A stretch of 40,644 bases of DNA from Loktanella salsilacus (GTDB lineage Bacteria; Pseudomonadota; Alphaproteobacteria; Rhodobacterales; Rhodobacteraceae), in NCBI RefSeq assembly GCF_900114485.1, contig NZ_FOTF01000026.1, positions 1 through 40,644 of the forward strand, given 5' to 3'. This document shows positions 8,859 through 35,089 of the stretch, piece after piece. The notes beneath the pieces are model-generated. The model saw only the letters and a program-made list of their open reading frames with translations, had not been told where the DNA came from and made no database searches. Numbering within the stretch: position 1 is the first letter of the stretch; every line of letters begins with the position of its first letter. Position numbers and translations under genes: made by a program.

Positions 8859-8921
8859 CGTCAATTTCCTTTTCACTTTGATGGTTCAAACGTCAGCCCG
8901 CCGGTTTTACGGCGTTAAAAC

Positions 8922-17229: not shown

Positions 17230-17232
17230 GTG

Positions 17233-19570: not shown

Positions 19571-19582
19571 AAGGCACAGACC

Positions 19583-20521: not shown

Positions 20522-21198
20522 CGGCACCGGATTACGGGCAAACCTTTGCCCTGTGGCACGGCGGCGCACAGGGGCAGTGGCGCGATTATACCCGCCACGC
20601 CTTTGTCGCGGGACTGGGCGACGGGACGCTGCCGCGTGCGGCGTTCCTGCACTACCTGACGCAGGACTACGTCTTTCTGGTGCACTTCGCCCGCGCGTGG
20701 TCGCTGGCCGTGGTCAAATCGGAAACGCTGGAGGAGATGCGCACCTGCGCTGCAACCGTTGATGCGCTGGTCAATCACGAAATGGCCCTGCATATCGGGG
20801 TCTGCGCTGCGCATGGCATTGACGAGGCGGCCCTTTTTCAAACTGCCGAGGCTGCGCCCAACCTTGCCTATACCCGCTACGTTCTGGACGCGGGCCTGCA
20901 GGGGGATTTCCTTGATCTGATGGCCGCGCTTGCGCCCTGCGTCATGGGATACGGCGAAATCGGCCTGCATCTGGCGCAGACCTGCACGCCGGACACGCCC
21001 TATAAGGACTGGATCGACACCTATGCCGCGCCGGACTATCAGGCCGTTTGCAAAAGCGTTGGCGCGATGATCGACGACGCCGTGACGCAGCGGATCGGCA
21101 GCTTGGCCACCTCACCTCGTGCTGCGCGGTTGCAGCAGCGTTTCACCACGGCGACCCAGCTAGAGGTCGGCTTTTGGCAGATGGGTCTGGACGCATGA
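20518..21198 (+). CDS. tenA: TenA family aminopyrimidine aminohydrolase (thiaminase II)
   Basis: The product has 226 residues and is all-helical. Catalytic positions of TenA can be recognised: the Asp in FLHYLTQDYVFL (D50), the active-site Cys in LAPCVMGYGEIG (C141), and the C-terminal Glu in TQLEVGFWQMG. The YTRYVLD motif is also present. It hydrolyses aminomethyl-pyrimidine to HMP, feeding ThiD with salvaged pyrimidine brought in by ThiYZX. It overlaps thiY and thiZ by 4 bases each. Confidence 0.93.
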   Translation: MTAPDYGQTFALWHGGAQGQWRDYTRHAFVAGLGDGTLPRAAFLHYLTQDYVFLVHFARAWSLAVVKSETLEEMRTCAATVDALVNHEMALHIGVCAAHGIDEAALFQTAEAAPNLAYTRYVLDAGLQGDFLDLMAALAPCVMGYGEIGLHLAQTCTPDTPYKDWIDTYAAPDYQAVCKSVGAMIDDAVTQRIGSLATSPRAARLQQRFTTATQLEVGFWQMGLDA

Positions 21199-21917
21199 CA
21201 CCCCCGCCGGGCATCACGTTGGCGGGGGATTATGCCCTTGGGGGTGCGCCGCTGTTCCGCGCGAATTTGCACCTGCGGGCGGGGGAATGGACCTGCTTGC
21301 TTGGGCGGTCCGGCACCGGCAAAACGACGATCCTGCGGTTGCTGCTTGGCCTGCCGACGGGTGGCCATTTTGCCGGGCAGATTGCAGCCACGGACGGTGC
21401 CAGCCTGCAAAACCGCGTCAGCTATATGGCGCAGTCTGATCTGCTGCTGCCTTGGCTGAATGTGCTGGATAACGTCTGCATCGGCGCCCGCCTGCGGGGC
21501 ACGATCCCCGACCGTGCCCGCGCGGCAGAGCTGCTGCGCCGTGTCGGTCTGTCAGGCGCCGCACATCACATGCCGCGCCAGTTGTCCGGCGGCATGCGCC
21601 AACGCGCCGCCCTTGCCCGCACCCTGTGCGAGGATCGCCCCGTTGTTCTGCTGGACGAGCCCTTCTCGGCCCTTGATGCAGGGACACGCGCCGATATGCA
21701 GGACCTTGCGGCGCAGGCTCTGGCGGGCCGCACCGTCCTGCTGGTCACCCACGACCCGGCAGAGGCCGCGCGGCTGGCCCATCAGATCGTCCTGCTGTCG
21801 CCGCAAGGGACGGCAGTCTGGCCGACCGCGCCGCAATCCCCGCCCCGCGCCATCGACGCCCCGGACACTATCGCGAGCCAAAGCCGCCTGCTGGCGCATC
21901 TGCGCTGCGCCGCATGA
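21195..21917 (+). CDS. thiZ: ABC transporter ATP-binding protein for HMP precursor
   Basis: The product has 240 residues from the ATG overlapping the tenA stop; a longer in-frame start inside tenA is unlikely. It has Walker A GRSGTGKTT (37-45), Q-loop MAQSDLLLPWLNV, signature LSGGMRQRAALARTL, Walker B VVLLDEPFSALDAGTR and switch His in VTHDPAEA. It powers the ThiX permease for pyrimidine salvage. The ATG of thiX overlaps its stop. Confidence 0.92.
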   Translation: MTPPPGITLAGDYALGGAPLFRANLHLRAGEWTCLLGRSGTGKTTILRLLLGLPTGGHFAGQIAATDGASLQNRVSYMAQSDLLLPWLNVLDNVCIGARLRGTIPDRARAAELLRRVGLSGAAHHMPRQLSGGMRQRAALARTLCEDRPVVLLDEPFSALDAGTRADMQDLAAQALAGRTVLLVTHDPAEAARLAHQIVLLSPQGTAVWPTAPQSPPRAIDAPDTIASQSRLLAHLRCAA

Positions 21918-22654
21918 GGGGGCGGGATATCTTGGCTGCGGTGCTGCTTGCGCTGGCCCTGTGGCAGGCGGCGGTCACACTGACAGGCGCGCCGCATTTC
22001 ATCCTTCCCTCGCCGCTGCGGGTCATGCAGGCCGCTTGGGCAAGCCGCGTTTTAATCGCGCAAAACGCGTGGGTGACGGGGATCGAAGTGCTGCTGGGCC
22101 TGATCCTTGGCACGGTTTTAGGCGCTGCGACGGCGATCGGGCTGGCGCTGTCAAAAAGGGCAGAGCGGCTGATGCTGCCGCTGCTGGTCTTCAGCCAAGC
22201 GGTCCCGGTCTTCGCCCTCGCACCCCTGCTGACGCTGTGGTTCGGGTATGGCATGGGGTCCAAGATCGTGATGACCGTGCTGATCATCTTCTTTCCCGTG
22301 ACATCAGCCTTTCACGACGGGTTGCGCCGCGCGGCCCCCGGCTATCACGATCTGGCCGCGACGATGGGCGCAAGCCGCTGGCGGTTCATGCGCCATATCG
22401 CGATCCCGCAGGCGCTGCCCGCGCTGGGGACGGGCCTGCGGTTGGCGGCAGTTTATGCGCCAATCGGGGCCGTCATTGGCGAATGGGTCGGGGCGTCGCG
22501 GGGGCTGGGATATCTAATGCTGCTGGCCAATGGTCGGGCCAAAATCGACCTGATGTTCGCCGCCCTGATCGTTTTGGCCTGCCTGACGGTCGCTTTGCAT
22601 CTGGGTGTGGGAAAGCTTGCGGATCGGTTGTCACGCTATGCGCACGGCGATTAA
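21914..22654 (+). CDS. thiX: ABC transporter permease for HMP precursor
   Basis: The product has 246 residues and about six membrane helices. The ATPase-contact loop reads LAATMGASRWRFMRHIAIPQALPALGTG without the first residues of the canonical EAA box. FILPSPLRVMQA and SQAVPVFALAPLLTLWFGYG are typical of ThiX. It is the last gene of the riboswitch-controlled operon. Its 3' end overlaps by 4 bases the end of the convergent acyl-ligase gene, leaving no room for a terminator between the two operons. Confidence 0.92.
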   Translation: MRGRDILAAVLLALALWQAAVTLTGAPHFILPSPLRVMQAAWASRVLIAQNAWVTGIEVLLGLILGTVLGAATAIGLALSKRAERLMLPLLVFSQAVPVFALAPLLTLWFGYGMGSKIVMTVLIIFFPVTSAFHDGLRRAAPGYHDLAATMGASRWRFMRHIAIPQALPALGTGLRLAAVYAPIGAVIGEWVGASRGLGYLMLLANGRAKIDLMFAALIVLACLTVALHLGVGKLADRLSRYAHGD

Positions 22655-24072
22655 AGCAGCTTTTGCAACGCCTTGCGGTCTACCTTTGACGCATGGCGGC
22701 GGTCCATCGGGATACGGGCGATATGCTTAACGCCGGGGATATCCAGCTGCGCGGCGGCTTTCGTCCAAGCGTTCAGGCACGCCGCGTCCCCTGCGATCAC
22801 AAGACAGGGCGCACCGCGCACCGACATCAATGCGCATTGGGCCGCTCCGGGCCAAGACCGCGCGGCGACCTCAATCTGAAACGGATAGGTTGGCTTGCCA
22901 GCCAGATCGACCTGCGTGCCAACGCGCCCCAGCAGCCAAAGCCGTCCCTGCGCGTCGAAATACCCAGCGTCCCCGGTGCGGTGCCAGATGATCTGCCCAA
23001 TCCGCACCTTGTTTTCCGCATCATGCGCGGGGTCCAGATAGCCGCCGTTGACATGCCCGCCGGCGACCTGAATTTCGCCCGTGACGATGCGCACGTGAAT
23101 ATCGCGAACGGGCGATCCGACCAGAAGGCCCTGCCCCGCCGCCATTGCCGCCACGTCCTGAGCGGTGATCTGGGCGCTGCTGAGGTGCGCAATCGGCTCT
23201 GCCTCGGTCGAGCCGTAGACGCAGGTGATGTGCAAGGCGGGCCCCTCGGCTTGCAATCGCCGCAGCAGGTCCGGGAAGATCGGGCCGCCGCCAGTAAAGA
23301 CGGTGTGCAGTGACGGCGGTATCGCGCCGCCAGCCAGCGTGTCGCAAAGCGCGGGCGGCAGCAGGGCGCGGGTGACGGTGTGCTGCGCCATCCAAGCCGT
23401 CAGCGCGGCGGGTTGCACCTGCGCGAGTTGCGACATCTTCCAGTTTGGCAAGACGGACGTGCGGCCGCTGGCAATGTTGATCAGGACAAAGACCGGAAAG
23501 GCGACAAGATCGACCTCTGCCGCGCTGCTGTCCAGCATCGGCGCAATGGCGCGGTGCTGGGCGGCAAGGAAGCCATGGCTGCGCGGGATCGCTTTGGGCG
23601 CGCCGCTGGTGCCAGAGGTGAAAGAGATCAGCGCCAGATCACCCGCATCTGGCAGGGGCAGATCAAGCGCGGGGCCCGGCTTTGCGATGGGCCGCAAATG
23701 CGGCAAGCGCCACAGCGCAGGCAAGGCAAAGCGGAGCAGCCCGTATGCGCCCGCGCTGGCAAAGGCCGTGACCCCCGCCACCCGCACCGCATGGCGCAGG
23801 CCCGCCAGACCCATCGCAGGCTCTGGCAAGACCACGGTCGCGCCCAGCGACCACAGCGCCGCAAGGCTGGCGTAAAGGTCGGCGTCCACGCGCATCGCAA
23901 GCAGCACGCGGTCGCCTTTGCCGATGCCGCAGGCGTGCCACGCCCACGCCAATCCCTGCGCGCGGGCCTGCAACTGCGCAAAGCTGACCCGCCGCCCTAG
24001 CCCGTCGATGATTGCCGTTCGGTCAGGGGTCCGTGCGACGGCGGCGGCAAAGTCGGACAGCAGATCAGCCAT
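22651..24072 (-). CDS. AMP-dependent acyl/aryl ligase (acyl-CoA synthetase superfamily)
   Basis: The product has 473 residues in the ANL superfamily. It has the phosphate-binding loop ISFTSGTSGAPKAIPRSHG (about 149-166), VYGSTEAEPIAHLS (A5), the RTGDAGYFDAQGRLWLLGR hinge region (A7/A8), and a C-terminal lysine in HASKVDRKAL (near K463). It adenylates a carboxylic acid and probably transfers it to CoA or another thiol or nucleophile. The substrate is unknown. The STEAEP motif is unlike ordinary fatty-acyl-CoA ligases and is reminiscent of OleC-like and tailoring ligases. It is last in a seven-gene coupled operon and overlaps the GNAT gene by 8 bases. Confidence 0.85.
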   Translation of the reverse strand: MADLLSDFAAAVARTPDRTAIIDGLGRRVSFAQLQARAQGLAWAWHACGIGKGDRVLLAMRVDADLYASLAALWSLGATVVLPEPAMGLAGLRHAVRVAGVTAFASAGAYGLLRFALPALWRLPHLRPIAKPGPALDLPLPDAGDLALISFTSGTSGAPKAIPRSHGFLAAQHRAIAPMLDSSAAEVDLVAFPVFVLINIASGRTSVLPNWKMSQLAQVQPAALTAWMAQHTVTRALLPPALCDTLAGGAIPPSLHTVFTGGGPIFPDLLRRLQAEGPALHITCVYGSTEAEPIAHLSSAQITAQDVAAMAAGQGLLVGSPVRDIHVRIVTGEIQVAGGHVNGGYLDPAHDAENKVRIGQIIWHRTGDAGYFDAQGRLWLLGRVGTQVDLAGKPTYPFQIEVAARSWPGAAQCALMSVRGAPCLVIAGDAACLNAWTKAAAQLDIPGVKHIARIPMDRRHASKVDRKALQKLL

Positions 24073-24910
24073 CGCGGATCAGCCCGAACAGACCATAGCG
24101 GCGAAAGATCTGCGCGCCTTCGGTCGCGCTGCGCAAGGCCGACAGGTTGTCGTCATGAATCAGCGCATGGATCGCGGTGTCATAGCCCAGCGCGGCGGCG
24201 GCGGTGTGAAAGGCATGGGCCAAATGCTGCCCCGCACCCTTTTGCAGGCTGGCATAAGTCTTGAGGATCGCGCTGCGCGGCGCAAACCCTTCGGCGTAAT
24301 TGGGCGTGCCGAACAAAAAGCCTGCCAGCGTGCCATCCGGGCGGCGGGCAAAGAAGATCAGCTCGGGCTTTAGCATCGGCACCATGGGCATATACATCGC
24401 CAGAAAGGCATCCTGACTGATCGGTTTGTAGAACGCGTTGCGCACAAAGGCGGCGCTGGACAGGGCGTAGACCTGCGCAAACAGCGCCTCTGGCGCGGTG
24501 CCGTCCCACGCCTGAATTGTGAAATCATCGGTGGGCGCAGGCGACGTGGCTGCGGCAGTGGCCAGTGGCACCCGGGCGGAAAAGTAGCTGCTGATCTGGG
24601 TGAAGCCTGCGTCCGTAAACAGGGCGGGCGCTGCGGGATCGTCCTTCGGCTCCAACAGAAATGCGGGGCTGCCGTCTGTTTGCGTGACAAAGCGGTAGCT
24701 GTGCCATGTGTCGCCATCCATCGGGCCGATAATGCGGCGCTGGCCCGCATCCCAGACATGGGCGATCGCCTGATCCAACACCGCGCGGCCTGCCTCTGGC
24801 GTTTTGCAGGCGAACCCGCCCAGCGTCGCCGTTGGTGCGCCGTCCCATGCCGGGCCGTCCAGATACACGGTGATCTTAGCACCGTCATTTTGAAACACAC
24901 GGCTTGTCAT
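24065..24910 (-). CDS. GNAT-fold N-acetyltransferase-like protein
   Basis: The product has 281 residues from the ATG that overlaps the preceding stop (ATGA). A longer upstream frame lies inside the kinase-like gene and is discounted. An N-terminal region (GPMDGDTWHSYRF, FLLEPKDDP, GFTQISSYFSARVP) precedes a GNAT-like core, with ELIFFARRPDGTLAGFLFGTPNY as the beta4 strand, LKTYASLQKGAGQHLAHAFHTAAAALGY as the CoA-binding helix area, and ALIHDDNLSALRSA near the end. It may acylate an amine of the cluster product. The exact Q/RxxGxG/A pyrophosphate loop is only loosely present (QKGAGQ), so function is tentative. Confidence 0.7.
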   Translation of the reverse strand: MTSRVFQNDGAKITVYLDGPAWDGAPTATLGGFACKTPEAGRAVLDQAIAHVWDAGQRRIIGPMDGDTWHSYRFVTQTDGSPAFLLEPKDDPAAPALFTDAGFTQISSYFSARVPLATAAATSPAPTDDFTIQAWDGTAPEALFAQVYALSSAAFVRNAFYKPISQDAFLAMYMPMVPMLKPELIFFARRPDGTLAGFLFGTPNYAEGFAPRSAILKTYASLQKGAGQHLAHAFHTAAAALGYDTAIHALIHDDNLSALRSATEGAQIFRRYGLFGLIRDG

Positions 24911-26217
24911 GCGGCAAATCCAATCGCTGCCAGATAGGTTGTCACCGGGATCGCGAGGGACATCAGCGTCACCTTTGTCACGCGGCTTGCCCCGAAAGCG
25001 GCCGGGATCAGGGACGGCGTCAGCCCTGAAAGCAAAACGCTGGCGACCACGGCGGGCCACATCGGCCCGTTCCAATTCGACGCATCAGGGTTTAGCCCAA
25101 AGGCCACTGCGTAAATCACGCAAAGCCCCCCTGCTGCCAGCAACAGCAGCCAGCCGCGCACCGCTACGGGACGGGCTGCCAGCGCCAAGGCACACAGCGC
25201 CAAGGTCATGCCCATCGCGGTCAGCCCGTAAAAGGTCACCGCGTTCCACCCCGTCGCATTGCCCAGCGTCAGCCAACCGAAACTGACAAGCGCCAGCCCG
25301 GCGACGATGTCCAGATCGGGGTATTTGCCCCGGCAGGGTGCGGCGCTGCGGCTGAACGCATGGGCGGCAAGCACAAGGATCGGGATGATCGCGTTGTGCA
25401 CCTCGACCGTAGCAAGCAGCAGGAAAACCGTGGTGACATAGACGTGGGACGCGTGATGCGTCAGCCCGATGCGCGGCGCAATCAGGCGGAATGCCACAAG
25501 GGACGCCGCAAAAACAGCCGCCAGCCACAGCAGGCCCGCTAAGGGGCTGGCCGCATGGACGGACAGGAATGTCAGCAGACCCAAGGGCAGGAACAGGTTG
25601 TCAAAGCCGCGCCAACTGGCGGCCTCGACCAATGTGCCAAAACCTGCGACCATCAGGGCAATGACGATGATATTGGGCGGCGGGAACGGCGTCATCAGCA
25701 TCAGGCACAGGATCGCAATCAGCAGGGTGACGGTGAAAAAGACGACGCTGCCTTCGACGCTTTTGCGCCCTTCTTCGATCTTGAAAAACCGCGTGCCATA
25801 GGTGCTGCCCGCCAGCGCCGCCGCAGCATCCGCAAGTGTCAGCACAGCCATCGGCAGCACATAAAGGTAAGGCTCGTCGCCCGACAGAAAGAGGCAAACG
25901 CCGACGGACAGCGCCAACAGCAGATCGCCATAGGACGTGCGCTCGACGCCGTGCAACGTCTGCCCGAGCCGCGATCCGGGACGCCGCAGCACCAGCATGA
26001 CGACAAGCGTCACCGCGACCAGCACATAGACAGGCCAGCGATCCGGGAACAGCCACGGCAGGGTCAGGGCGTAAAGGCCGGTGGCGATGTGCACCAGCTT
26101 GCGCTGCACCTCTGCCCCGATCTGCCAAACGCCCGCCAACCGCCGCACCAAAGCCATCACCCCCAGCAGCACCGCGACAGAGCCAAGCGCCAGCCCGATC
26201 TGGAGCGGAGCCGTCAC
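24907..26217 (-). CDS. Phytol/dolichol-kinase-like (CTP-dependent) membrane enzyme
   Basis: The product has 436 residues from a GTG at 26217 (GTGA overlap with the upstream stop), with roughly a dozen membrane helices. The N-terminal half has the hallmarks of the Sec59/VTE5/diacylglycerol-kinase group within the CDP-diglyceride synthetase superfamily: QRKLVHIATGLYALTLPW (38-55), TLADAAAALAGSTYGTRFF (127-145) and GRKSVEGSVVFF (150-161). Such enzymes use CTP to phosphorylate prenyl alcohols or diacylglycerol at the membrane. The C-terminal half (after about 230) adds further helices that I do not recognise, making the protein about twice the length of bacterial VTE5-like proteins. A prenyl-alcohol substrate fits the HMGR and UbiA neighbours but is inference. 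Confidence 0.75.
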   Translation of the reverse strand: MTAPLQIGLALGSVAVLLGVMALVRRLAGVWQIGAEVQRKLVHIATGLYALTLPWLFPDRWPVYVLVAVTLVVMLVLRRPGSRLGQTLHGVERTSYGDLLLALSVGVCLFLSGDEPYLYVLPMAVLTLADAAAALAGSTYGTRFFKIEEGRKSVEGSVVFFTVTLLIAILCLMLMTPFPPPNIIVIALMVAGFGTLVEAASWRGFDNLFLPLGLLTFLSVHAASPLAGLLWLAAVFAASLVAFRLIAPRIGLTHHASHVYVTTVFLLLATVEVHNAIIPILVLAAHAFSRSAAPCRGKYPDLDIVAGLALVSFGWLTLGNATGWNAVTFYGLTAMGMTLALCALALAARPVAVRGWLLLLAAGGLCVIYAVAFGLNPDASNWNGPMWPAVVASVLLSGLTPSLIPAAFGASRVTKVTLMSLAIPVTTYLAAIGFAA

Positions 26218-27311
26218 GCAGTGACCTCTTCGACAATCAGGTCGGAGTAGAAGAACGCCTTGTCGATAGCTTTCAGGCGATCCTCGGTCTGTGTCAGGGT
26301 GCGGACGCGGCCGGCGTATTGTGGCGGCATCCGGCGCGGGGCCATCATGTTCCAATACACCAGCTGCGCACCGGGGGCCGCGGCACTTAGGATGTCGCCA
26401 TAGACCTGCGCAAAGGTGTCCGGCGACATGTATTCAAAGATGTCCGACAGGTTGAACCCGTCGGCCTTTTCCCCGGTCGAGATAAATGCCTCTAGCGCGC
26501 CGGGGCGGATATCGAGGCGATCAAGGCGCGCCTTGATCGCCTCAAAATGCTCTGCCCGCCACGTCATCGGCAGGGCCGCGCCGTGGGTGCCTTTCATGAT
26601 CCAGTGAAGATAGGGGTTTTCCGCCGGATCACAGGTGACGGCAGCATGGTGAATCCGGCGGGCAACGTGTTGCGCCGGACTGCCGTCGACGTGGTCAAAG
26701 AACGCCTTGTCCCGCCCCATGCGCCCCATGACAAAGCGCGAAAAGAAGGTGTTCAGCAGCAAACGCCACCGCCACGTATTGAATCGCTGATCCAGAAACG
26801 CCTGACGCGCGGCCAAAGGGCGAGTTTCGAAGATAGCGTCGATCGTCCGCTTGCTGTGGACCAGCGGCAAAAGCCGGGTGCGAAAGATGCGAAAATAGCG
26901 TTCGAACTTGCCGACGCCGCCCGCGCCATAAAGCGCGACGTCATCGGCGAGCGCCTGCCAGAAGGTCTGCGTGTCTGGGTCCAGCCCCGCCAGCGCCCGG
27001 TCCAGCAGACCTGCGCGCTGCGTGCTGGCGCGCGCGCCCATCAGCTCCAGAAACTCTGGGTGGGACAGGTTGCGAAATGCGCCGATCCGCAAGCGCAGGC
27101 AGGCGATTTGCGCCGGCGACAGATCGACGACCACGACCTTTGCAGGGTCCAGCGTCAGCATCGCCAATGCGTTATCCCCGGCGGAACAGATCGACACCAG
27201 CGTGCCGCCTGCGCAATCGCCAAGGGCCTGCGTCAGGACATCCGCGTCCTCCCACAACTGAGCATAGCGGATATGGTCAAAGGCCGCCTTTGCCGCGATT
27301 TCAGAGGTCAT
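26214..27311 (-). CDS. DUF3419 family protein (BtaA-like SAM enzyme)
   Basis: The product has 365 residues. It opens with FDHIRYAQLWEDADVLTQAL, matching the YxQxWEDxxxL motif of DUF3419. A SAM-binding Rossmann start follows (LVSICSAGDNALAMLTLDPAKVVVVDLSP). C-terminal motifs include FNLSDIFEYMSPDTFAQVY and VYWNMMAPRRMP. DUF3419 includes BtaA, which transfers the 3-amino-3-carboxypropyl group of SAM to diacylglycerol in betaine-lipid synthesis. A BtaB-type N-methyltransferase is not adjacent, so a plain betaine-lipid pathway is not evident. An aminocarboxypropyl ether on another lipid or prenyl alcohol is possible. It overlaps the dikinase gene by 11 bases. Confidence 0.8.
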   Translation of the reverse strand: MTSEIAAKAAFDHIRYAQLWEDADVLTQALGDCAGGTLVSICSAGDNALAMLTLDPAKVVVVDLSPAQIACLRLRIGAFRNLSHPEFLELMGARASTQRAGLLDRALAGLDPDTQTFWQALADDVALYGAGGVGKFERYFRIFRTRLLPLVHSKRTIDAIFETRPLAARQAFLDQRFNTWRWRLLLNTFFSRFVMGRMGRDKAFFDHVDGSPAQHVARRIHHAAVTCDPAENPYLHWIMKGTHGAALPMTWRAEHFEAIKARLDRLDIRPGALEAFISTGEKADGFNLSDIFEYMSPDTFAQVYGDILSAAAPGAQLVYWNMMAPRRMPPQYAGRVRTLTQTEDRLKAIDKAFFYSDLIVEEVTA

Positions 27312-29721
27312 TCAAACGCTCCACCATGCCAGTTGCCCCATCGACGCAGATCAATTCCCCGTCGCTAATCCACTGTGTCGCGCCTTTCAGACCCACAACG
27401 CAAGGGATGCCCAGTTCGCGCGCCACGATGGCCGAATGGGACAAGAGCGAGCCGCGTTCGACCACGATGGCGGCGGCGTTGGAAAAGACCGCGATCCAGC
27501 CCGGATCGGTATGGCGCGCAATCAAGATGTCGCCGGGGGTCAAGGTTTCCGTACGCGGATCGCGGATCACCCGCGCCCGCGCCGTGACGCGGCCAGCAGA
27601 GCAGCCTGTCGCGCTGCGCTGCGTGGCGGGGTCTTTTGTCGTGCTTTCGGGTTGCCACACCGGCGCAATCGCAGGGCCGCGCAGCGTAATCCGCTCTGGC
27701 GGGTCGGGGCGCAGGGCGGATGCGGCGTCCTCTGCCTTGCGCAGGGCGATCAGGGATTTCAGGTCTGGCGACAGACCGTAGCCTTCGACCGCGCCCAGCG
27801 CCTCGTCCTTGGTCAGATAGAAGATGTCGCGCGGCGCGGCGATCAGCCCGCGGGCGGCAAATTCGCGCCCCAGCGCAAGGAAGACGCGGCGCGTCAGGCC
27901 AAAGATGCGCGTGCGTTCAAACCGCAGGTTTTCGCGGTCGCGCACCCGGGCCTTGGTCCAGTTGATAAGCCATTTGGCAAAGTGTCGTCTGATGGGATTT
28001 TTGGGAAACAGCGCGGACCAGTCCGGCGCGGTCCCCACCCGATCAGCCACCGGGCCGCGCCCGGCACTGGCGGCGATGGCCTGCAATAGACTGCTGGGAT
28101 CATCCGTCAGCGGGATGCTTTCCAGCTTTAGCTCTTCGGTGCAGCGATCACCAAAGCGGTCCAGATAAGCGTGAACCTTTTGCAATATCGCCGGATGTCC
28201 GGCCAGCGCGTCCAATCCATCAGCGGCCAAAGCCTTGGCCAGCCCTGCCTGCGCCACCATCTGCCCCATCTGCGCAATGCGCTGCGCAGGCTCGGCCGAG
28301 ACGATATCCCCCTGCCCGATCATGACATCGTTGTGCAGGATCAGCCCCTGTGGCCCCAGCCATTTTTCCAGCAGATTGCGCGAGGCCCCAAAGGCGATCA
28401 TGCACAAAAAGTCATTCACCAGCGGCGCGTCCCAGCGGTCCAGTAGCGTGCTTTCGATCCGGCGGTATTCGGCGGCCAACGCGGTTGGCCCCGCCGTTTG
28501 TGGATCAAATCCGCTATCCAGCGCCGCGTTCAGGCGGTCATAAAACCGCGCCCGCGTGCGGGGTAGCCGGATCGCCTGCCAGATCAGACCGCCCGCAACC
28601 CGCACCAGCTTGAGGTATTCCCGCACGCGCGCGGCACCTTTGGCGGGGGGCGGGCCTATGCTTTGCGTGACTTCATCCGGCATCGGGGTCGCGACGCCCA
28701 TCATGGTTTCCATATAGGCGCGGTTCAGCGAAAACCCCGGCAGCAGGGCCAAGGCGCGATACCAGTTCACAAGGTTATAATAGACACGGCCATCAACCCG
28801 CCCCAGCATATTGCCAAAGACGCCGGCATGCGCTGCAACCGTGGCATCAGGCACCCCCAACAGGCCAACAAAGGCGCGGTAGACGCGGGCGTAGACATGC
28901 ACGGCAAAGGAATAGGTTAGCGGGCTAACCATGCCGGGATAGCTTTCGACAATGTTGGAATTGTCAAAGATCGTCAGCGCCGTGTCCACCTGCGGCGCTG
29001 GCAGCAGCGGCGTCGTGATCGGGCGCGATTGCAGGATATGCAGGCCAGCGGCGTCGATGGCCCATTCGATATCCTGCGGCGCGGTAAAGGCCGCCTCTGC
29101 CCGGCGCGCAAGGTCTGCGATGCCCAGCGCCTGCGCGGGGGTCAGCACCTGCGGCGCATCTGGCCCTTGCGCTGTATCCGTGACGATCCAATCCTCGCCG
29201 TCGACTTCGCCCGACACCAGCCTTTCGCCCAAGCCTGCGATGGCAGAGATCACAACAACGCCCCGCTGGCCCGACACCGGATCGGCGGAAAAGGCGACGC
29301 CTGCGGATTGCGCGTCAATCATGCGCTGGACAATGACGGCGGGCCCTTCTGCCGCACCGCCGGATTTAAGCTGGCGATAGGTGGCGACGGTATCGCCAAA
29401 GCCTGACTGATAAACCTGTTGCGCGGCCTGCCAGACGTTAGCGGCAGCGACGTTCAGCACCGTATCAAACTGCCCCGCGTGGCTATGCTCTGCCCCGTCC
29501 TCTGCCCGGGCAGAGCTGCGCACGGCAAAGGGGCCGGCCCCCAGCGCCTGCAAGGCCGCGTCCAGCCCGGCGATCGGTTCACGCGCAGCGCAGGCGCTTG
29601 CCGGGATGACAAAGAACACAGGCGGGTTGAACCCCAGCTTGGCCAGCTGCGCGAGGGACGCAGCCTTACCGCCGACCTGCTGCACGTCCTGCGCGGCCTC
29701 TTGAGCGATGATGCCAGACAT
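27301..29721 (-). CDS. PEP-synthase/rifampin-phosphotransferase-like dikinase
   Basis: The product has 806 residues from the ATG at 29721 (TAATG overlap with the UbiA gene). The frame stays open upstream into the UbiA gene, but that part is a shadow. The N-terminal ATP-grasp domain has VGGKAASLAQLAKLGF, FAVRSSARAEDG, SAGVAFSADPVSG and IEWAIDAAGLHILQSRPI. A long middle domain, about residues 290-690, lacks recognised motifs. The C-terminal swivelling phosphohistidine domain has ERGSLLSHSAIVARELGIPCVVG with candidate His762. The PEP/pyruvate TIM barrel of true PEP synthase is missing. This order and size match rifampin phosphotransferase, which passes the beta-phosphate of ATP through His to a small-molecule hydroxyl. 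I infer phosphorylation of a pathway alcohol. Confidence 0.8.
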   Translation of the reverse strand: MSGIIAQEAAQDVQQVGGKAASLAQLAKLGFNPPVFFVIPASACAAREPIAGLDAALQALGAGPFAVRSSARAEDGAEHSHAGQFDTVLNVAAANVWQAAQQVYQSGFGDTVATYRQLKSGGAAEGPAVIVQRMIDAQSAGVAFSADPVSGQRGVVVISAIAGLGERLVSGEVDGEDWIVTDTAQGPDAPQVLTPAQALGIADLARRAEAAFTAPQDIEWAIDAAGLHILQSRPITTPLLPAPQVDTALTIFDNSNIVESYPGMVSPLTYSFAVHVYARVYRAFVGLLGVPDATVAAHAGVFGNMLGRVDGRVYYNLVNWYRALALLPGFSLNRAYMETMMGVATPMPDEVTQSIGPPPAKGAARVREYLKLVRVAGGLIWQAIRLPRTRARFYDRLNAALDSGFDPQTAGPTALAAEYRRIESTLLDRWDAPLVNDFLCMIAFGASRNLLEKWLGPQGLILHNDVMIGQGDIVSAEPAQRIAQMGQMVAQAGLAKALAADGLDALAGHPAILQKVHAYLDRFGDRCTEELKLESIPLTDDPSSLLQAIAASAGRGPVADRVGTAPDWSALFPKNPIRRHFAKWLINWTKARVRDRENLRFERTRIFGLTRRVFLALGREFAARGLIAAPRDIFYLTKDEALGAVEGYGLSPDLKSLIALRKAEDAASALRPDPPERITLRGPAIAPVWQPESTTKDPATQRSATGCSAGRVTARARVIRDPRTETLTPGDILIARHTDPGWIAVFSNAAAIVVERGSLLSHSAIVARELGIPCVVGLKGATQWISDGELICVDGATGMVERLNDL

Positions 29722-30626
29722 TAAAGAACCCTTATCAAGACGGGCACAAAGCCTGCGATGGCATAGCAGGCGAAAACCCAAAGGCCCGCAACCGTATCCA
29801 TGCGCTTTTCCGCGCCGGGTGTGAGGGATATGGCATAGGCCCGCGCGGCCCAAAGGCAGGCGGCAAAGCCTGCCCCGCCCAATGCAAGCGTGATCCAAAA
29901 TGCGCCTGTTACGGCACCAACGCCCAGCAGCAGGCCAAAGGATAGCGCGGTGCAAGCCGCCCAGATGATGGCCGCGCGGCGCGGCCCCCAGAGGCGGGAA
30001 TAGGTCTCCACCCCCGGCAATTCGCTTTGCGGTGCCCACAGCTTGCGCCCGATTTCCAGCACGCAACCGTTGACGAAAGATAGCGCCAGAAACAGCCAGA
30101 TGCCGCGCGTTGCCCCGCCGCCGGGCATCCATTCGATCCCGGTCAGCAAAAGATCAATCAAGGGCATGATCGCCATATGGCTGACCAGATACAGCAGCGG
30201 CCGCGCCTTGAGCCACGCTGCCACGCCGAATTCTGCGGTCATCGCAGCCAGCCAGAGCCAGACCAGCGCGAGTAGCCAAAGCGCGGGGGGATGCCACAGC
30301 CAAACGGCCAGCGCCGTGACGGGCAACGAGGCTAGCCCAAGCGCGATAATCTGGCGCAGCGACACCAACCCGCGGGGGATCGGGCGGTGCGGGCGATAGC
30401 GGCGGTCGTCGTCCAGATCCTTGTATTCATCGCAAACGCGCATCTGGAAAAACAGCATCATCGCGGCCATGAAGGCCGCCACAAACGCCCACGCTTCGGG
30501 CAGCGGCCGCCCTGCCATTTCAGCCGAAGCGCACAGGCTTGCCGCTGAAAACACCGCCAGCAACGGAACCGTCTTGGCCAGCGGAAAGCGTTCCTTTTGA
30601 TAGGTCCAAAGCGCCGCAGCCTTCAT
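29721..30626 (-). CDS. UbiA-family prenyltransferase-like membrane protein
   Basis: The product has 301 residues with eight or nine membrane helices. The first aspartate-rich motif of the UbiA superfamily is clear: RVCDEYKDLDDDRRYRPHRPIPRG (residues 63-86; D66 and D70 for Mg-diphosphate), with the RPxRPIPRG tail. The region where a second DxxxD is expected reads LPGVETYSRLWGPRRAA, with Glu/Tyr in place of aspartates, so metal binding may differ. UbiA enzymes transfer a prenyl group from a diphosphate to an aromatic ring, glycerol phosphate or other acceptor in the membrane. Acceptor and prenyl length are unknown. It overlaps HMGR upstream (ATGA) and the dikinase downstream (TAATG). Confidence 0.82.
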   Translation of the reverse strand: MKAAALWTYQKERFPLAKTVPLLAVFSAASLCASAEMAGRPLPEAWAFVAAFMAAMMLFFQMRVCDEYKDLDDDRRYRPHRPIPRGLVSLRQIIALGLASLPVTALAVWLWHPPALWLLALVWLWLAAMTAEFGVAAWLKARPLLYLVSHMAIMPLIDLLLTGIEWMPGGGATRGIWLFLALSFVNGCVLEIGRKLWAPQSELPGVETYSRLWGPRRAAIIWAACTALSFGLLLGVGAVTGAFWITLALGGAGFAACLWAARAYAISLTPGAEKRMDTVAGLWVFACYAIAGFVPVLIRVL

Positions 30627-31888
30627 CGGTGCCGCGCCAATTGCTGATGCGCCCGCGTGAAATGGCCCGCCGCAATCGCCGCCACGATCGAGATTTCACC
30701 GCACAGACACGTCGCCGCCGCGACCTCTGCCAATGCCGCGCCTTTGCCCGCGCCCTTAAGCCCCAGAATGTTCAGCCCCGCCGATTGGCTTGGCAGCGAT
30801 GTGCCGCCGCCGACCGACCCCACAAGGATGTTGGGCATGGTGACAGAGCAGAACAAATCATCGCCCCGCGCCTCCATCCGTGTGATCCCAACGGCGCTTT
30901 CGGCAACGCAGGCGGCGTCTTGCCCGGTCGCCAGATAAAGCGCGGCCAAACCGTTCGCGTAATGCGCCTGCGCGCCAAGCTGGCCTGACAGATGTGATCC
31001 AAGGTTCGCAACCTGACCGTAATCCAGCATCGCCTGCACACTGGTGCCAAGCACGGTTTCGACCACCTTGGCGGGCAAGGTGACAGACGCGCTGACCTTG
31101 CGCCCGCGCCCAGTGACGAGGCCCAAAAAGGATGCCTTTTTATCGCCGGAAAAGTTGCCTTCGATATACCACGCCTTCATCGGAATAGGGCAGCGCGCGT
31201 TGATGTCTTCGCATAGCGCGTTTGTCGCGATGGTCACCATGTTCTGCCCCGCCGCGTCGCCCGTTGTGTAGCGGCAGATCAGAAACACGATGTTATTGTC
31301 CACCATCGGCTCGACCGAGGTCAGCTTGCCGTGGCGCGTTGTCGCCTCTGCTGCGGCCTTGAGCGTTTCGATGTCATTCACGACCCATTCCACGAACAGC
31401 CCTGCGTTGACCAAATTGTCAAAGACAAAGGCTGGCGTGCGGATCACGCCCTCGTACAGCAGCGCGGTGCTGATGCCGCCGGATTTTGTCGCGGCATAAG
31501 CGCCCCGCCCGTAGGACGCGACCAAGGCCGCCTCTGTCGTGGCCAGCGGGACGTTGTAATCGCCGTGGGCGTTCAAGCCGTTGATGCGCAGCGGGCCGAT
31601 GATGCCGACGGGGATTTTCACGGTGCCGATGAAGTTTTCGATATTGGAGTCGAATAGCGCCGGATCAGCCATGGTCAGCGAGTCGGCCAAGGCGTCCCGG
31701 TCCTGCGTCGATGCTGTCTCCAACAAACGGTTCCAGTATTTCGCGACCGATGCCGCCGTGGCGCGGCGCACCGGGCGCAGGGCGGCAAAGGCAGCCTCGC
31801 TGGGCTGCATACGGTTTGCCAGTGGCTCTGCCTGAAACGTTGCGCGGACTTTGCGCAGCATGTCGATCACATGGGACGGGATGGTCAT
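30623..31888 (-). CDS. Hydroxymethylglutaryl-CoA reductase, class I type, soluble
   Basis: The product has 421 residues from the ATG at 31888, with GGAG 7 bases upstream; the frame stays open further upstream but has no ribosome site. Class I motifs are ENFIGTVKIPVGIIGPL (84-100), PLATTEAALVASYGRGA (E119), NADPH-site GDAAGQNM (210-217), GNFSGDKKAS (K250), TGQDAACVAES (D324), SVTMPNILVGSVGGGT, and the C-terminal AAGHFTRAHQQLARHR (H414). All four catalytic residues (Glu, Lys, Asp, His) are in place, and no membrane anchor is present. It reduces HMG-CoA to mevalonate with NADPH. The enzyme is rare in Alphaproteobacteria, which normally use the MEP pathway. It leads a seven-gene operon with no other mevalonate-pathway gene. 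Confidence 0.93.
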   Translation of the reverse strand: MTIPSHVIDMLRKVRATFQAEPLANRMQPSEAAFAALRPVRRATAASVAKYWNRLLETASTQDRDALADSLTMADPALFDSNIENFIGTVKIPVGIIGPLRINGLNAHGDYNVPLATTEAALVASYGRGAYAATKSGGISTALLYEGVIRTPAFVFDNLVNAGLFVEWVVNDIETLKAAAEATTRHGKLTSVEPMVDNNIVFLICRYTTGDAAGQNMVTIATNALCEDINARCPIPMKAWYIEGNFSGDKKASFLGLVTGRGRKVSASVTLPAKVVETVLGTSVQAMLDYGQVANLGSHLSGQLGAQAHYANGLAALYLATGQDAACVAESAVGITRMEARGDDLFCSVTMPNILVGSVGGGTSLPSQSAGLNILGLKGAGKGAALAEVAAATCLCGEISIVAAIAAGHFTRAHQQLARHR

Positions 31889-31951
31889 AGGCAGAACTCC
31901 GGCTTTACTTCGCGGGTGATAGCCTAAAAACATATCGGCAATGCGGTAAAT
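31889..31951. promoter_or_regulatory. Divergent control region between HMGR operon and sulfotransferase-P450
   Basis: Only 63 bases separate the two divergent start codons, so both promoters must overlap here or lie inside the opposite coding ends. The centre is AT-rich (CCTAAAAACATAT). The HMGR side carries GGAG as ribosome site. I cannot assign -35/-10 boxes with confidence. The arrangement implies joint control of the two arms of the cluster. Confidence 0.6.
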
Positions 31952-33088
31952 ATGCGATCGGACAAGGACATGAGTGCCCAGCTGAAACATCAATGGAGCA
32001 TTGGGCACAATTATCTGACCGGAATCACCTTTGGGCGGTGGTGCAAATTGCTGGCGCAAAACGGGTTTCAGGTGTCCCCTGCCTATTTGCACCGCGCTGC
32101 CGCGATTACGCTGGCAAGCCTGTCCAATTCGGTCTGCGCCGGGGTTGAGGAATTGCGCTATGGCGCGGCGATCCGCCAGGCCCCGCGCCCCAAAGCGCCG
32201 CTGTTTATCCTTGGCCATTGGCGCAGCGGCACGACCCTGCTGCACGAATTACTGGCGCAGGACCGCGCCCAGTTTCAATTTCCTAACACCTATCAGGTTG
32301 TGAACCCTTACACTTTTCTGACGACCGAAGGCTTTACCACCCGCATGTTCCCATGGCTGGTCCCGCCAAAGCGCCCGATGGATAACATGGCGCTGGCCTT
32401 TACGTCCCCGCAAGAGGACGAGTTCGCCCCGCTGCTGATGACGCTGACCTCGCTTTACCTTGGCACGAGCTTTCCGCGCCGGATGGATCATTACGACCGC
32501 TACATGACGTTTCAAGATGCCGACCCGCAAGACGTTGCAGCCTGGAAGTCCGCCTTTGTCACCTTTTGTAAAAAGCTATCGCTGCATGACACGCGCCATT
32601 TGCTGATCAAATCGCCGCCGCATACCGCGCGCATTCGGCTGATATTAGAGATGTTTCCGGACGCCCGTTTCATTCATATCCACCGCGACCCCTACCGCGT
32701 CTTTCAATCGCAGCGGCATTTCTTTGATACTGCTGGCTGGTACACCTATCTGCAAAAGCCCGATCTGGGGGCGATTGACGATGGCATCCTGCGGCGCCAC
32801 GAGGCGATGTATGACGCCTATTACGCCGATCTGCCCTTGGTCCCAAAAGGCCAGATTCACGAGCTTCGCTTTGACGCGTTAGAGGCCGATCCGGTCGGCG
32901 AAATCGCAAAGGCCTATGACGCGCTGTCGCTGGACGGTTTCGCGGAATTCTCTTTGGTTTTGCGCGGTTATGTCGCCAGCCTGAAAGGGTATAAAAAGAA
33001 CAGTTTCGGCGAATTGGATGCCCCCACCAAAGCCATCGTCGCAGACCGCTGGGCCCGCAGTTTTGAACGCGGGGGCTATGCGAAATGA
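31952..33088 (+). CDS. PAPS-dependent sulfotransferase family protein
   Basis: The product has 378 residues; an ATG six codons in (31970) is an alternative start. The 5'-phosphosulfate loop is LFILGHWRSGTTLLHELL (about 84-101), and the 3'-phosphate motif is ARFIHIHRDPYRVFQSQRHFF in the second half. LIKSPPHTARI lies between. This is the Sulfotransfer_3-like group, which moves sulfate from PAPS to an alcohol or amine of a lipid, sugar or small molecule in the cytoplasm. It overlaps the P450 gene by 4 bases and is divergent from the HMGR operon, so the cluster product may be sulfated. The substrate is unknown. Confidence 0.85.
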   Translation: MRSDKDMSAQLKHQWSIGHNYLTGITFGRWCKLLAQNGFQVSPAYLHRAAAITLASLSNSVCAGVEELRYGAAIRQAPRPKAPLFILGHWRSGTTLLHELLAQDRAQFQFPNTYQVVNPYTFLTTEGFTTRMFPWLVPPKRPMDNMALAFTSPQEDEFAPLLMTLTSLYLGTSFPRRMDHYDRYMTFQDADPQDVAAWKSAFVTFCKKLSLHDTRHLLIKSPPHTARIRLILEMFPDARFIHIHRDPYRVFQSQRHFFDTAGWYTYLQKPDLGAIDDGILRRHEAMYDAYYADLPLVPKGQIHELRFDALEADPVGEIAKAYDALSLDGFAEFSLVLRGYVASLKGYKKNSFGELDAPTKAIVADRWARSFERGGYAK

Positions 33089-34329
33089 CGCGTGCGCCGG
33101 GGCCAAAGGGCAGCCTGCTGTGGGGATCGCTAGGGGCGTTCAAGGCGGACTCGCTGGGGTTTTTGGCGCAGGCCGCGCAGGACCATGGCGATGTTGTGCG
33201 CCTGCGGTTTGGGCCGATCACGGCGCATTTAGTCAACCACCCTGCGCTGGTGGAACAGGTGCTGTCGCGCAATGCGGCAAACTATGACAAGGCCACCCGC
33301 AGCGCGGACCGGATCGCGGCCACCACAGGGCGCAGCCTTTTGTCTGCCGATCAGACCGCATGGGCGCGGCACCGCCGCCTGATCCAGCCCGCATTCCAGC
33401 CTCGCGCCTTCGATGGGATCGGCCCCGTCTTGGACGACCTGATTGCGCCGATGTTTGTCCGTTGGGACAAGGCGGGCAAGATCGACATCGTGGACGAGAT
33501 GATGCAACTGGTCATCGCCGCCGCAATCCGCATTCTGTTTTCATCCAGCATCGATCCGCAGCGCATTAACGCGCCTTTGGAAATCCTGCTGGCCGACACC
33601 TGGCGCCGGATCGAGGCCCCTTTGGACGCCTCTCTCCTCTCTCCCCGTCTGCACCGCCCCGCCTTTAAAAAGGCCGTTGCGCAGATTGATGCGATCGTGC
33701 TCGATCTGATCCAAACGCGCCGCGCCAGTGTCCAGCGCCCGGACGATGTGCTGACCCGCCTGCTGGATGCCCACGCGGCAGAGGGAGAGGCGCAACTGAC
33801 GGATCAAGAACTGCGCGACGCCGCCATGACGCTGCTGCTTGCGGGGCACGAGACGACGGCGAATGCCCTGTCTTGGGCCTTCATCCACGCCTCTGGTACC
33901 ATTCAGGCCGCAGACCCCGCCCATATTTTTGCAGAGGCGATCAGGCTTTACCCGTCGATCTGGATCATCGAACGCCGTGCGTTGCAGGCGGACACCATTG
34001 GCGGCTTTGACATCCCGCGCGGCAGTTCGGTCCTGATCTCTCCGTTTCTGTTGCACCGCCGGGCTGATTTCTGGCCTGATCCGACGCGGTTTGACCCCGC
34101 CCGCTTTGCGGATGGCACACCGCGTCCGCGCGATGCCTACCTGCCGTTCGGGCTGGGGCAACATCGCTGCGTCGGCCTGCATCTGGCGAACAAGATCGCA
34201 GCCCACGTGATCGGCCGGGTCTTTGCTGAGTTTGACCTGCGCGCCCTGCCCGGCCAAACGCCCCACACCGATCCCGGGATCACCCTGCGCCATGCGCAGC
34301 CATTCTGGATGAGCGTTAGCCGATCATAG
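33085..34329 (+). CDS. Cytochrome P450 with shortened I-to-K-helix region
   Basis: The product has 414 residues and no membrane anchor. P450 landmarks are a C-helix WARHRRLIQPAF (W93-R97), I-helix LLLAGHETTANALSW (AGHETT 253-258), K-helix EAIR (E284-R287) followed by LYP, the FDPARF meander motif, and the heme loop LPFGLGQHRCVGLHLA with ligand C362. Only 25 residues separate HETT from ExxR, where P450s normally have about 50, so the J/J' helix segment appears to be missing while the frame stays intact. It probably hydroxylates the cluster product. No ferredoxin or reductase gene is adjacent. Its end overlaps the convergent COG4705 gene by 14 bases. Confidence 0.9.
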   Translation: MTRAPGPKGSLLWGSLGAFKADSLGFLAQAAQDHGDVVRLRFGPITAHLVNHPALVEQVLSRNAANYDKATRSADRIAATTGRSLLSADQTAWARHRRLIQPAFQPRAFDGIGPVLDDLIAPMFVRWDKAGKIDIVDEMMQLVIAAAIRILFSSSIDPQRINAPLEILLADTWRRIEAPLDASLLSPRLHRPAFKKAVAQIDAIVLDLIQTRRASVQRPDDVLTRLLDAHAAEGEAQLTDQELRDAAMTLLLAGHETTANALSWAFIHASGTIQAADPAHIFAEAIRLYPSIWIIERRALQADTIGGFDIPRGSSVLISPFLLHRRADFWPDPTRFDPARFADGTPRPRDAYLPFGLGQHRCVGLHLANKIAAHVIGRVFAEFDLRALPGQTPHTDPGITLRHAQPFWMSVSRS

Positions 34330-35089
34330 GCTGCACGCGGGCTTGGCGCCCCCGCGACATGTAGATGACAATCGCGACAATGGCGGCCAGAAACAGCGCG
34401 CTGGTCATAATCGTCCCAAGACCGTAGCCGCCATATTCCGCAGGCTGCGACAACAGATCGCCAAGGGATGCGCCCAACGGGCGAGTGAAGATGTAAGCGA
34501 TCCAGAACGCCCAATTCCCGTCAAGTTTCAGCACGAAATACCCCGCCGTCACCGATGCGATGATCATGCCAAACAAGATGCCCGTCGCCATGTAGCCCAG
34601 CGCAAAATGCTCTGCCACCAGATCGCCCGCAGCGGTTCCAAGGGCAAAGGTGAACAGGATCGCAAGCCAATAGAAGCCCTCTCGCCGGGTCGTCTTGACC
34701 TCGTGGATCGACAGTGTGCGTTCTGACGCGAACCAAGCGGCAAAGGTCAGGGCCAGCAAGGCGCTGAACAAAACCGTCGTCGTCACCAGCGATACGCCAA
34801 AGTTGTCGACAAGGTTGTCAGTCACCAACGTGCCAACGATCGAAATCAGCACGACCGCCAGCCAATATGACCACGGCACGTACCGCCTTTGGCGAAATTG
34901 CAGCGCCAACGCGCCGATCAGAATGGCCGCCATCAGCAGCGAGGTCGCAGTCAACCCAAGGCCAAGGTTCACAGCCAAAAAGTCGGCCGCGGTTTCCCCC
35001 ATCGTGACGGCCATCAGTTTGATCAGCCAGAAGTCGACGGTCACATCAGGTACGCGGTTCAGGGCGGCGGATGGTGCAAAAGTGCTCAT
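34316..35089 (-). CDS. COG4705-like membrane protein with fourfold repeat
   Basis: The product has 257 residues and about eight membrane helices. It contains four copies of a pattern in which an aromatic-Trp pair is followed about ten residues later by GxxxxDxL: FWLIK...GETAADFL (20-38), YWLAV...GTLVTDNL (75-93), YWLAI...GTAAGDLV (140-158) and FWIAY...GASLGDLL (195-213). This is the layout of the COG4705/DUF347 family, of unproven function. The conserved in-membrane acidic residues suggest cation handling, which is inference. It follows a small exported protein gene on the same strand, close to a two-component system, and they may form one unit. Confidence 0.8.
   Translation of the reverse strand: MSTFAPSAALNRVPDVTVDFWLIKLMAVTMGETAADFLAVNLGLGLTATSLLMAAILIGALALQFRQRRYVPWSYWLAVVLISIVGTLVTDNLVDNFGVSLVTTTVLFSALLALTFAAWFASERTLSIHEVKTTRREGFYWLAILFTFALGTAAGDLVAEHFALGYMATGILFGMIIASVTAGYFVLKLDGNWAFWIAYIFTRPLGASLGDLLSQPAEYGGYGLGTIMTSALFLAAIVAIVIYMSRGRQARVQPMIG

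Follow-up and report, generated by a model that had tools for sequence, protein, structure and literature searches.

A conserved seven-gene cassette headed by an HMG-CoA reductase-fold enzyme and its possible role in an undescribed membrane-lipid pathway

Class I HMG-CoA reductases (HMGRs) of the mevalonate pathway use Glu559, Lys691, Asp767, and His866 as catalytic residues. UbiA prenyltransferases feature a second Asp-rich motif, and the DUF3419 enzyme BtaA performs the first step to the betaine lipid DGTS. A passage in PMC9500038 assigns to Lys735 of HMGR a salt bridge with the terminal carboxylate of HMG, and the CTP-binding motif of dolichol and phytol kinases is given in a passage of PMC5853391 as DxxAxxxGxxxGx8KKTxEG. 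Here, we describe a gene cassette in which proteins resembling all these enzymes are encoded side by side.

Layout and distribution of the seven-gene block

The window, that is, the whole stretch of 40,644 nucleotides analysed from Loktanella salsilacus (NZ_FOTF01000026.1), contains seven minus-strand genes at 22651–31888, with consecutive overlaps of 1–11 bases. Diverging from the HMGR gene across a 63-bp intergenic region (31889–31951) are two plus-strand genes, encoding a sulfotransferase (31952–33088, 378 aa; PF13469, 127.3 bits) and a cytochrome P450 (33085–34329, 414 aa; PF00067, 190.8 bits). No sigma-70-like promoter match was detected in 31800–32050, at the head of the cassette. The GC content of the seven-gene block (0.62–0.66) is similar to that of the adjoining thiamine genes.

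An HMGR ortholog was detected in 22 of the 390 genomes searched in the order, each of which carries the complete block with its genes in the same order. Moreover, strong GNAT and DUF3419 matches in this sample identified the same 22 genomes. A contig scan yielded 512 relatives, and the best 80, reaching down to 63% identity, were taken as named loci; these partially overlap the 22 order genomes, and the two sets of counts are not independent. All seven genes are present in 74 of these best 80, and the remaining 6 end at contig edges. Among the 74 complete loci, the gene order is fixed throughout, each neighbouring gene pair overlaps in 61 to 74 loci, and the median gene spacing is −4, −4, −11, −4, −4, and −8. 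In addition, the pairwise distance matrices of the cassette genes correlate at 0.79–0.91. The cassette is found mainly in roseobacter-type bacteria, among them the laboratory strain Roseovarius nubinhibens ISM (L075), with further named loci in other Alphaproteobacteria and one Halomonas. In the 385-genome class sample, a strong GNAT match was obtained in the window genome only, with four weak others, and in the 398-genome phylum sample the best other HMGR reached at most 525 bits, compared with 827 bits for the window. The seven genes are a single conserved unit, which is probably one transcript and has probably spread horizontally.

The sulfotransferase/P450 pair occurs in 3 of the 22 order carriers, and the sulfotransferase and window-type P450 occur in 14 of the best 80 relatives; they were thus rejected as core parts. 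Only four families recur in at least 5 of the 80 loci's flanks: two P450 types, the sulfotransferase, and a family present in 11 loci that was judged by eye to be an ABC transporter ATPase. The sequence-only reading had described the overlapping genes and the divergent pair as they are found here, and had proposed a biosynthetic unit with lipid-like enzyme types together with a neighbourhood check for co-occurrence elsewhere. This unit is supported by the block in all 22 carriers and 74 of the 80 named loci, and the genes do co-occur beyond the window genome; the same reading had also counted the sulfotransferase and P450 in the pathway, to which they are optional additions. The product class that it suggested, a prenylated, phosphorylated and perhaps sulfated lipid or meroterpenoid, is one candidate.

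The HMGR-fold reductase and host pathways around HMG-CoA

The gene at 30623–31888 (minus strand) encodes a 421-aa protein with the HMGR catalytic domain (PF00368, 369.4 bits against a cut-off of 27). In an alignment of 21 of the 22 carriers (L048, cut by a contig end, was left out), E119, K250/K251, D324, and H414 are invariant, and the cassette enzyme retains the equivalents of Glu559, Asp690, Lys691, Lys692, Asn755, Asp767, and His866, of which Asp690, Lys691, Lys692, and Asn755 are themselves HMG contacts. The HMG-contact residues Ser684 and Lys735 are replaced by Glu (E243) and Ala (A294), respectively, in all 95 cassette rows covering both sites, and their equivalents are kept in all 6 mevalonate-type control HMGRs. 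At the R590 site, 11 of the 95 cassette rows still have a basic residue, R or K; this site is a poor marker, because 2 of the 6 mevalonate-type controls carry Glu there. Neighbours of the controls include HMG-CoA synthase (L049 and L172), GHMP kinase (L049–L051), and an FMN-dependent dehydrogenase (L050–L052, L171, and L172); no mevalonate genes were found among the HMGR neighbours scanned in the window. Furthermore, in a tree containing the window enzyme and 24 of the 74 named cassette HMGRs, picked for spread, all 25 lie on one side of a branch with support of 100/99. Read from its sequence, the enzyme is probably an NADPH-dependent acyl-CoA-to-alcohol reductase acting on a substrate other than HMG-CoA.

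Non-cassette HMGRs were matched in 20 other genomes of the phylum sample, and 18 regions from 17 genomes were taken (G416, G485, and G696 were left out; one region spans only 4620 bases). Apart from HMGR, these neighbourhoods yielded one distantly related dikinase (L160, 156 bits), ligase matches of low score (L165 and L169), and one unrelated response-regulator match, and no common theme emerged among the ten neighbours checked. The nearest standalone HMGRs belong to one genus (g237), which we guess to be Vibrio.

HMG-CoA synthase was found in none of the 22 cassette carriers, and the window genome encodes the MEP-pathway enzyme DXR. Since HMG-CoA synthase is absent from the carriers examined, their HMGR serves no standard mevalonate pathway, and mevalonate supply for isoprenoids was rejected. 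The earlier idea of isoprenoid supply built on HMGR is therefore not sustained, as it also meets with DXR, the lack of mevalonate genes among the neighbours scanned in the window, and the replacement of two HMG-binding residues in every covering row. HMG-CoA lyase scored over its cut-off in 20 of the 21 other carriers, which makes a supply of HMG-CoA from leucine probable in most carriers, and HMG-CoA may still be a substrate of the HMGR. In the window genome, the best lyase match reached 46 bits against a cut-off of 246, and both this genome and G312 keep the cassette with neither HMG-CoA synthase nor lyase over the cut-off. A host-wide absence of HMG-CoA, drawn from the window genome alone, fails given the lyase in the other carriers.

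The six other cassette enzymes

The UbiA-family membrane prenyl/alkyl transferase (29721–30626, minus strand, 301 aa) matches PF01040 with 57.4 bits (cut-off 34.2); its best match among solved structures, 6m31, has an E value of only 0.02. The first Asp-rich motif, DExKDxxxD, is present in 69 of 75 copies, and the second is replaced by ExGRK in 74 of 75; because this second motif is lost, the chemistry may differ. The adjoining dikinase of the PEP-synthase/RPH/PigC type (27301–29721, minus strand, 806 aa) combines an ATP-grasp domain (PF01326) with a phosphohistidine swivel domain (PF00391) and matches the PDB structure 5fbs. Its motif pattern was found in 76 of the best 80 of 512 relatives, and H762 is invariant in 19 aligned rows. 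This alignment and those of the four enzymes below cover 19 of the 22 carriers (L039, L042, and L044 were left out). A PEP-synthase-named model gave the highest score (625 bits), and the RedH, RPH, and PigC models scored 266, 254, and 244 bits, respectively; all 25 of the 27 NCBIfam models listed are below cut-off, the best reaching 625 of 883 bits.

The DUF3419/BtaA-like enzyme (26214–27311, minus strand, 365 aa; PF11899, 192.9 bits) is, by analogy, probably a 3-amino-3-carboxypropyl transferase using SAM. No second DUF3419 gene was found in the window genome, and two other carriers (G173 and G236) have an extra DUF3419-type gene with a weak match. Identity to rhizobial plasmid relatives is ~24–28% where most of the protein aligns. 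PDB sequence searches returned nothing useful for this enzyme or for the polyprenol/phytol/dolichol-kinase-like membrane protein encoded next to it (24907–26217, minus strand, 436 aa). The window copy of the latter has no Pfam or NCBIfam match, and 19 members are without a relevant family. A relaxed CTP-kinase motif, DxxAxxxGxxxG...KSxEG (x8–10, one Lys, Ser or Thr), was found in 69 of the best 80 of 512 relatives; in the window copy, the spacer is one residue longer and Lys-Lys-Thr is changed to Arg-Lys-Ser.

The putative tandem-GNAT acyltransferase (24065–24910, minus strand, 281 aa) was recognised by a fold match covering residues 1–281; its window copy likewise has no family-model match, and a PDB sequence search gave a chance match only. 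A distant relative (hhalign probability 96) adjoins a fatty-acid hydroxylase gene and may belong to the bacterial ceramide synthase group. The AMP-dependent acyl ligase (22651–24072, minus strand, 473 aa; PF00501, 124.6 bits) most resembles PRK09274 and OleC-like acyl ligases and scores 268 bits against NF006754, under the 478-bit cut-off. A strict pattern for the A10 motif is limited to 23 of 79 copies, though the lysine of this motif (K463) is invariant in 19 aligned rows.

Proposed pathway, alternatives, and comparison with described systems

From these enzyme types we favour, tentatively, a reading in which the cassette, probably one transcript and horizontally spread, would make one membrane lipid or lipid-like metabolite. 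A more specific version, proposed with somewhat greater reserve, is that an HMGR fold was recruited as an alcohol-forming reductase for longer or isoprenoid acyl-CoA. This step may be the entry to an undescribed membrane-lipid class with a homoserine-type ether headgroup, N-acylated and optionally hydroxylated and sulfated, encoded by a seven-gene cassette spread across Rhodobacterales and Hyphomicrobiales as well as a few other Proteobacteria. We infer six steps, ordered by falling certainty, with step order and substrates as a proposal. The ligase would convert a carboxylic acid to acyl-CoA (or acyl-AMP), and the HMGR-fold enzyme would use NADPH to reduce an acyl-CoA other than HMG-CoA to an alcohol. 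The two kinases, one CTP-dependent and polyprenol-kinase-like and the other a phosphohistidine dikinase, may then phosphorylate this alcohol or a neighbouring hydroxyl, and the UbiA enzyme would couple the activated chain to an acceptor within the membrane. The DUF3419 enzyme, like BtaA, may use SAM to attach a 3-amino-3-carboxypropyl (homoserine-type) group through an ether bond, and the tandem GNAT may acylate the new amine or a hydroxyl. In some strains, P450 hydroxylation and sulfation could follow on top.

Other products were weighed against this lipid. That the product is instead a secreted meroterpenoid or prodigiosin-like small molecule, for which the dikinase would serve as a C–N ligase of the PigC type, is doubtful: the dikinase matches the RedH and PigC models near RPH and optional P450 and sulfotransferase tailoring is available, but the PEP-synthase-named model scores far higher, and the flanks show only four recurrent families, namely the two P450 types, the sulfotransferase, and the one read as an ABC ATPase. 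We consider it rather less probable still that the HMGR makes mevalonate as a building block from leucine-derived HMG-CoA, with the ligase forming mevalonyl-CoA, the GNAT transferring it, and the MEP pathway feeding the isoprenoid steps. The fungal siderophore enzymes SidI and SidF follow such a logic of a mevalonyl-CoA-making ligase and a transferase, most carriers have a lyase over the cut-off, the pocket Glu, DKK, Asn, Asp, and His are intact, and the ligase and GNAT accompany HMGR in 74/74 complete loci. However, this explanation has to accommodate the Glu/Ala replacements in 95/95 covering rows, the two carriers that keep the cassette with neither synthase nor over-cut-off lyase, and a ligase closest to a fatty-acid CoA ligase model.

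Salvage of isoprenoid alcohols is an unlikely function. The kinase-like protein and dikinase would make phytol- or polyprenol-like diphosphates for UbiA, with the ligase and HMGR turning isoprenoid acids into alcohols, which accords with the relaxed CTP-kinase motif and with a dikinase in the same block adjoining UbiA. Such a route has no need for DUF3419 and GNAT, yet neither is missing from any of the 74 complete loci or the 22 carriers, and the patchy spread (22/390) is unlike housekeeping salvage. A chance neighbourhood of housekeeping genes can practically be dismissed, given the fixed order and frequent overlaps in the complete loci and the identical carriers returned by the HMGR, GNAT, and DUF3419 searches.

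No published description of the seven-gene set or a named pathway was found in searches of the open-access literature, in agreement with the sequence-only reading, which knew of no named pathway with this enzyme combination. An unrecognised lipid-type pathway in ~6% of the sampled order genomes would add a compound class to well-studied marine bacteria. The cassette HMGRs are probably not mevalonate enzymes, and inferring a mevalonate pathway from the HMGR gene alone would thus be wrong in these hosts. Moreover, the two proteins without a family model in the window copy are direct targets for new enzymology.

Compared with class I HMGRs of the mevalonate pathway, the cassette enzyme shares the fold, the Glu/Lys/Asp/His residues, the cis-loop DKK, and the Asn755 equivalent, but differs in Glu/Ala at Ser684/Lys735, in its separate side of the tree, and in hosts that lack HMG-CoA synthase. 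The UbiA-like protein has the PF01040 domain and first Asp-rich motif of UbiA prenyltransferases but carries ExGRK...GVxxYS at the second (alignment of 22). The dikinase shares its ATP-grasp and His swivel domains with rifampin phosphotransferase, PEP synthase, and PigC, although it stays below the cut-offs of the models listed. The kinase-like protein has a relaxed form of the motif of dolichol and phytol kinases; it differs in a long, poorly conserved C-terminal half and, in the window copy, in matching no Pfam or NCBIfam family. The tandem GNAT resembles mycothiol synthase and similar proteins in fold over its full length, but with 8–17% identity among the 50 matches listed. Finally, the cassette shares the DUF3419 family with BtaA and differs from the betaine-lipid pathway in that no BtaB-type methyltransferase is found among its seven genes.

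The seven-gene block and its surroundings

The block comprises seven minus-strand genes, whose coordinates and overlaps were as the sequence-only reading had stated, given true starts: HMGR (30623–31888), UbiA (29721–30626), dikinase (27301–29721), DUF3419 (26214–27311), a kinase-like protein (24907–26217), GNAT (24065–24910) and ligase (22651–24072), all on the minus strand. The divergent sulfotransferase/P450 pair begins 63 bases from the block. Pfam backed seven of these nine assignments, and no Pfam or NCBIfam model matched the window copies of the GNAT and the kinase-like protein.

Thiamine genes (17230–22654; ThiG, ThiE-type, ThiF, NMT1/THI5-like binding protein, TenA, ABC ATPase and permease) head towards the cassette, and the permease gene (21914–22654) overlaps the ligase gene by 4 bases, tail to tail. 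A DUF347 repeat membrane protein with four repeat stretches (34316–35089) adjoins the P450. Elsewhere in the window, a YHYH-domain protein (7719–8876) lies beside an AcrB-type efflux gene (8922–12041).

Conservation and inheritance of the cassette

The HMGR search of 390 genomes of the order returned 26 matches, of which 22 were close (64–100% identity, window included) and four were distant (35–38% identity). Strong matches to the GNAT profile numbered 22 across 390 genomes of the order, with one further weak match, and the DUF3419 profile matched strongly (at least 642 bits) in 22 genomes of the order and only weakly in 27 others. Compared by eye, the strong HMGR, GNAT and DUF3419 sets were the identical 22 genomes. 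Furthermore, GTDB species genomes were scanned with a DUF3419 alignment, and the best 80 of 512 relatives were used. The sequence-only reading had proposed gene co-occurrence as a check, and co-occurrence was indeed found: the other six genes accompany the HMGR, in the same order, in all 22 close-HMGR genomes, and all seven are present in 74 of these best 80 loci. In the remaining six loci, 1–219 bases separate the first match from a contig end, and the position of the absent genes would be at or past a contig end. No cassette block lay beside any of the four distant HMGRs.

Hosts among the best 80 of the 512 relatives include Thalassococcus, Yoonia, Ruegeria, Roseovarius, Sulfitobacter, Paracoccus and Bosea, together with Rhizobium, Devosia, Chelativorans, Dongia, Hyphomicrobium and Halomonas salipaludis. 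G200 and G307, two members of the same genus as the window genome, gave no HMGR or GNAT match in the searches of the order sample, indicating that the distribution of the cassette is patchy; G307 gave a weak DUF3419 match.

Across the 74 complete loci, the median spacings between neighbours in gene order were -4, -4, -11, -4, -4 and -8 bases. Overlap was seen in 61, 67, 74, 70, 69 and 63 loci for the respective pairs, with odd spacings (up to 639 and down to -1098) arising from a few start calls. For the seven proteins, pairwise distance matrices correlated with one another at 0.79–0.91, as expected for a unit inherited together, with shared species history also contributing. The cassette is almost certainly a dedicated biosynthetic unit.

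Among 72,556 plasmid records, one from Roseinatronobacter sp. S2 (NZ_CP121116.1, 137 kb, typed non-mobilizable; locus L179) closely matched the DUF3419, kinase-like and UbiA proteins. The record annotates six genes in cassette order and labels two of these 'hypothetical protein'; the HMGR position spans the record start, where no gene is annotated. This plasmid-borne copy hints at movement between replicons. In the window, the GC content of the block resembles that of the genes alongside, giving no compositional sign of recent arrival.

The accessory genes are less widespread. The window-type P450 and sulfotransferase occur jointly in 14 of the 80 named loci and in 3 of the 22 carriers of the order sample (window counted), whereas 7 of the 80 loci and 3 of the 22 carriers have a distant P450 (25–27% identical) in the neighbourhood of the cassette. 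At thresholds of at least five loci and more than 35% identity, one other flank family recurred (11/80), which on visual inspection was taken for an ABC transporter ATPase.

Substrate residues and ancestry of the cassette HMGR

The closest solved relative of the window HMGR is 6hr7 (E = 1.4e-98). Alignment with 1dq8, which we take to be human HMGR, showed that the cassette HMGR retains the presumed catalytic Glu, Lys, Asp and His as well as the DKK loop. The equivalents of Asp690, Lys691, Lys692 and Asn755 (human numbering) are also retained. Ser684 and Lys735 are replaced by Glu243 and Ala294 (window numbering) in all 95 rows spanning both sites, out of 96 cassette rows, some of which represent the same genome in two collections. 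The Arg590 site carries Val in 64, Thr in 13, and Lys or Arg in 11 of the 95 rows. Ser and Lys occupy the 684/735 sites in all five solved chains listed by the structure search and in all six control HMGRs taken as mevalonate-type, in which the Arg590 site holds Arg or Lys (4/6) or Glu (2/6).

Ten neighbouring genes from the six control loci (L049–L052, L171 and L172) were matched to families. HMG-CoA synthase lies beside L049 and L172, GHMP kinase beside L049, L050 and L051, and an FMN-dependent dehydrogenase, presumably type 2 IPP isomerase, beside L050–L052, L171 and L172, being the sole gene examined for L052 and L171. L049–L052 are the distant HMGRs of four of the 390 genomes, each with mevalonate-pathway-type neighbours.

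In a tree of 47 sequences, the 25 sampled cassette HMGRs all fell on one side of a branch with support of 100/99, next to standalone HMGRs of genus g237 and apart from the mevalonate-type HMGRs. These standalone proteins (L155–L160; six of eight genomes of the genus examined) are 51–54% identical to the cassette HMGR and likewise lack the Ser and Lys anchors; the only other cassette gene found near them was a distant dikinase in L160. They are probably a second group of non-HMG reductases. In a third HMGR-like group from other Proteobacteria (L161–L170), the Lys at the 735 site is absent in all ten and the Ser at the 684 site is kept in five, with no shared neighbours among those checked.

HMG-CoA synthase (PF01154) was found in none of the 22 carriers, which excludes a standard mevalonate supply in them within the sensitivity of the family model for the synthase. 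The window genome encodes the MEP-pathway enzyme DXR. It is very unlikely that the cassette HMGR serves a mevalonate pathway. HMG-CoA derived from leucine is another conceivable substrate. HMG-CoA lyase scored above the cut-off in 20 of the 21 carriers other than the window genome, and in neither the window genome nor carrier G312; the replaced residues make leucine-derived HMG-CoA less likely as the substrate. Overall, we consider that HMG-CoA is probably not the substrate of the cassette HMGR.

A candidate pathway and comparison with known systems

The ligase and the HMGR-fold reductase might convert an acid to an alcohol, which would then be activated by the two kinases and attached in the membrane by UbiA; the BtaA-like enzyme could supply a headgroup that carries an amine, and acylation would fall to the GNAT. 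The enzyme types are each supported, and we infer the order and substrates of the steps; the full pathway is proposed tentatively, at somewhat below even chances. Searches of open-access literature for the seven-gene set or its parts yielded no description of the set. By kind, the genes predict a lipid or natural-product biosynthetic cassette: its enzyme families are known, and what distinguishes it from the systems described in the open-access literature found is their combination and the altered HMGR.
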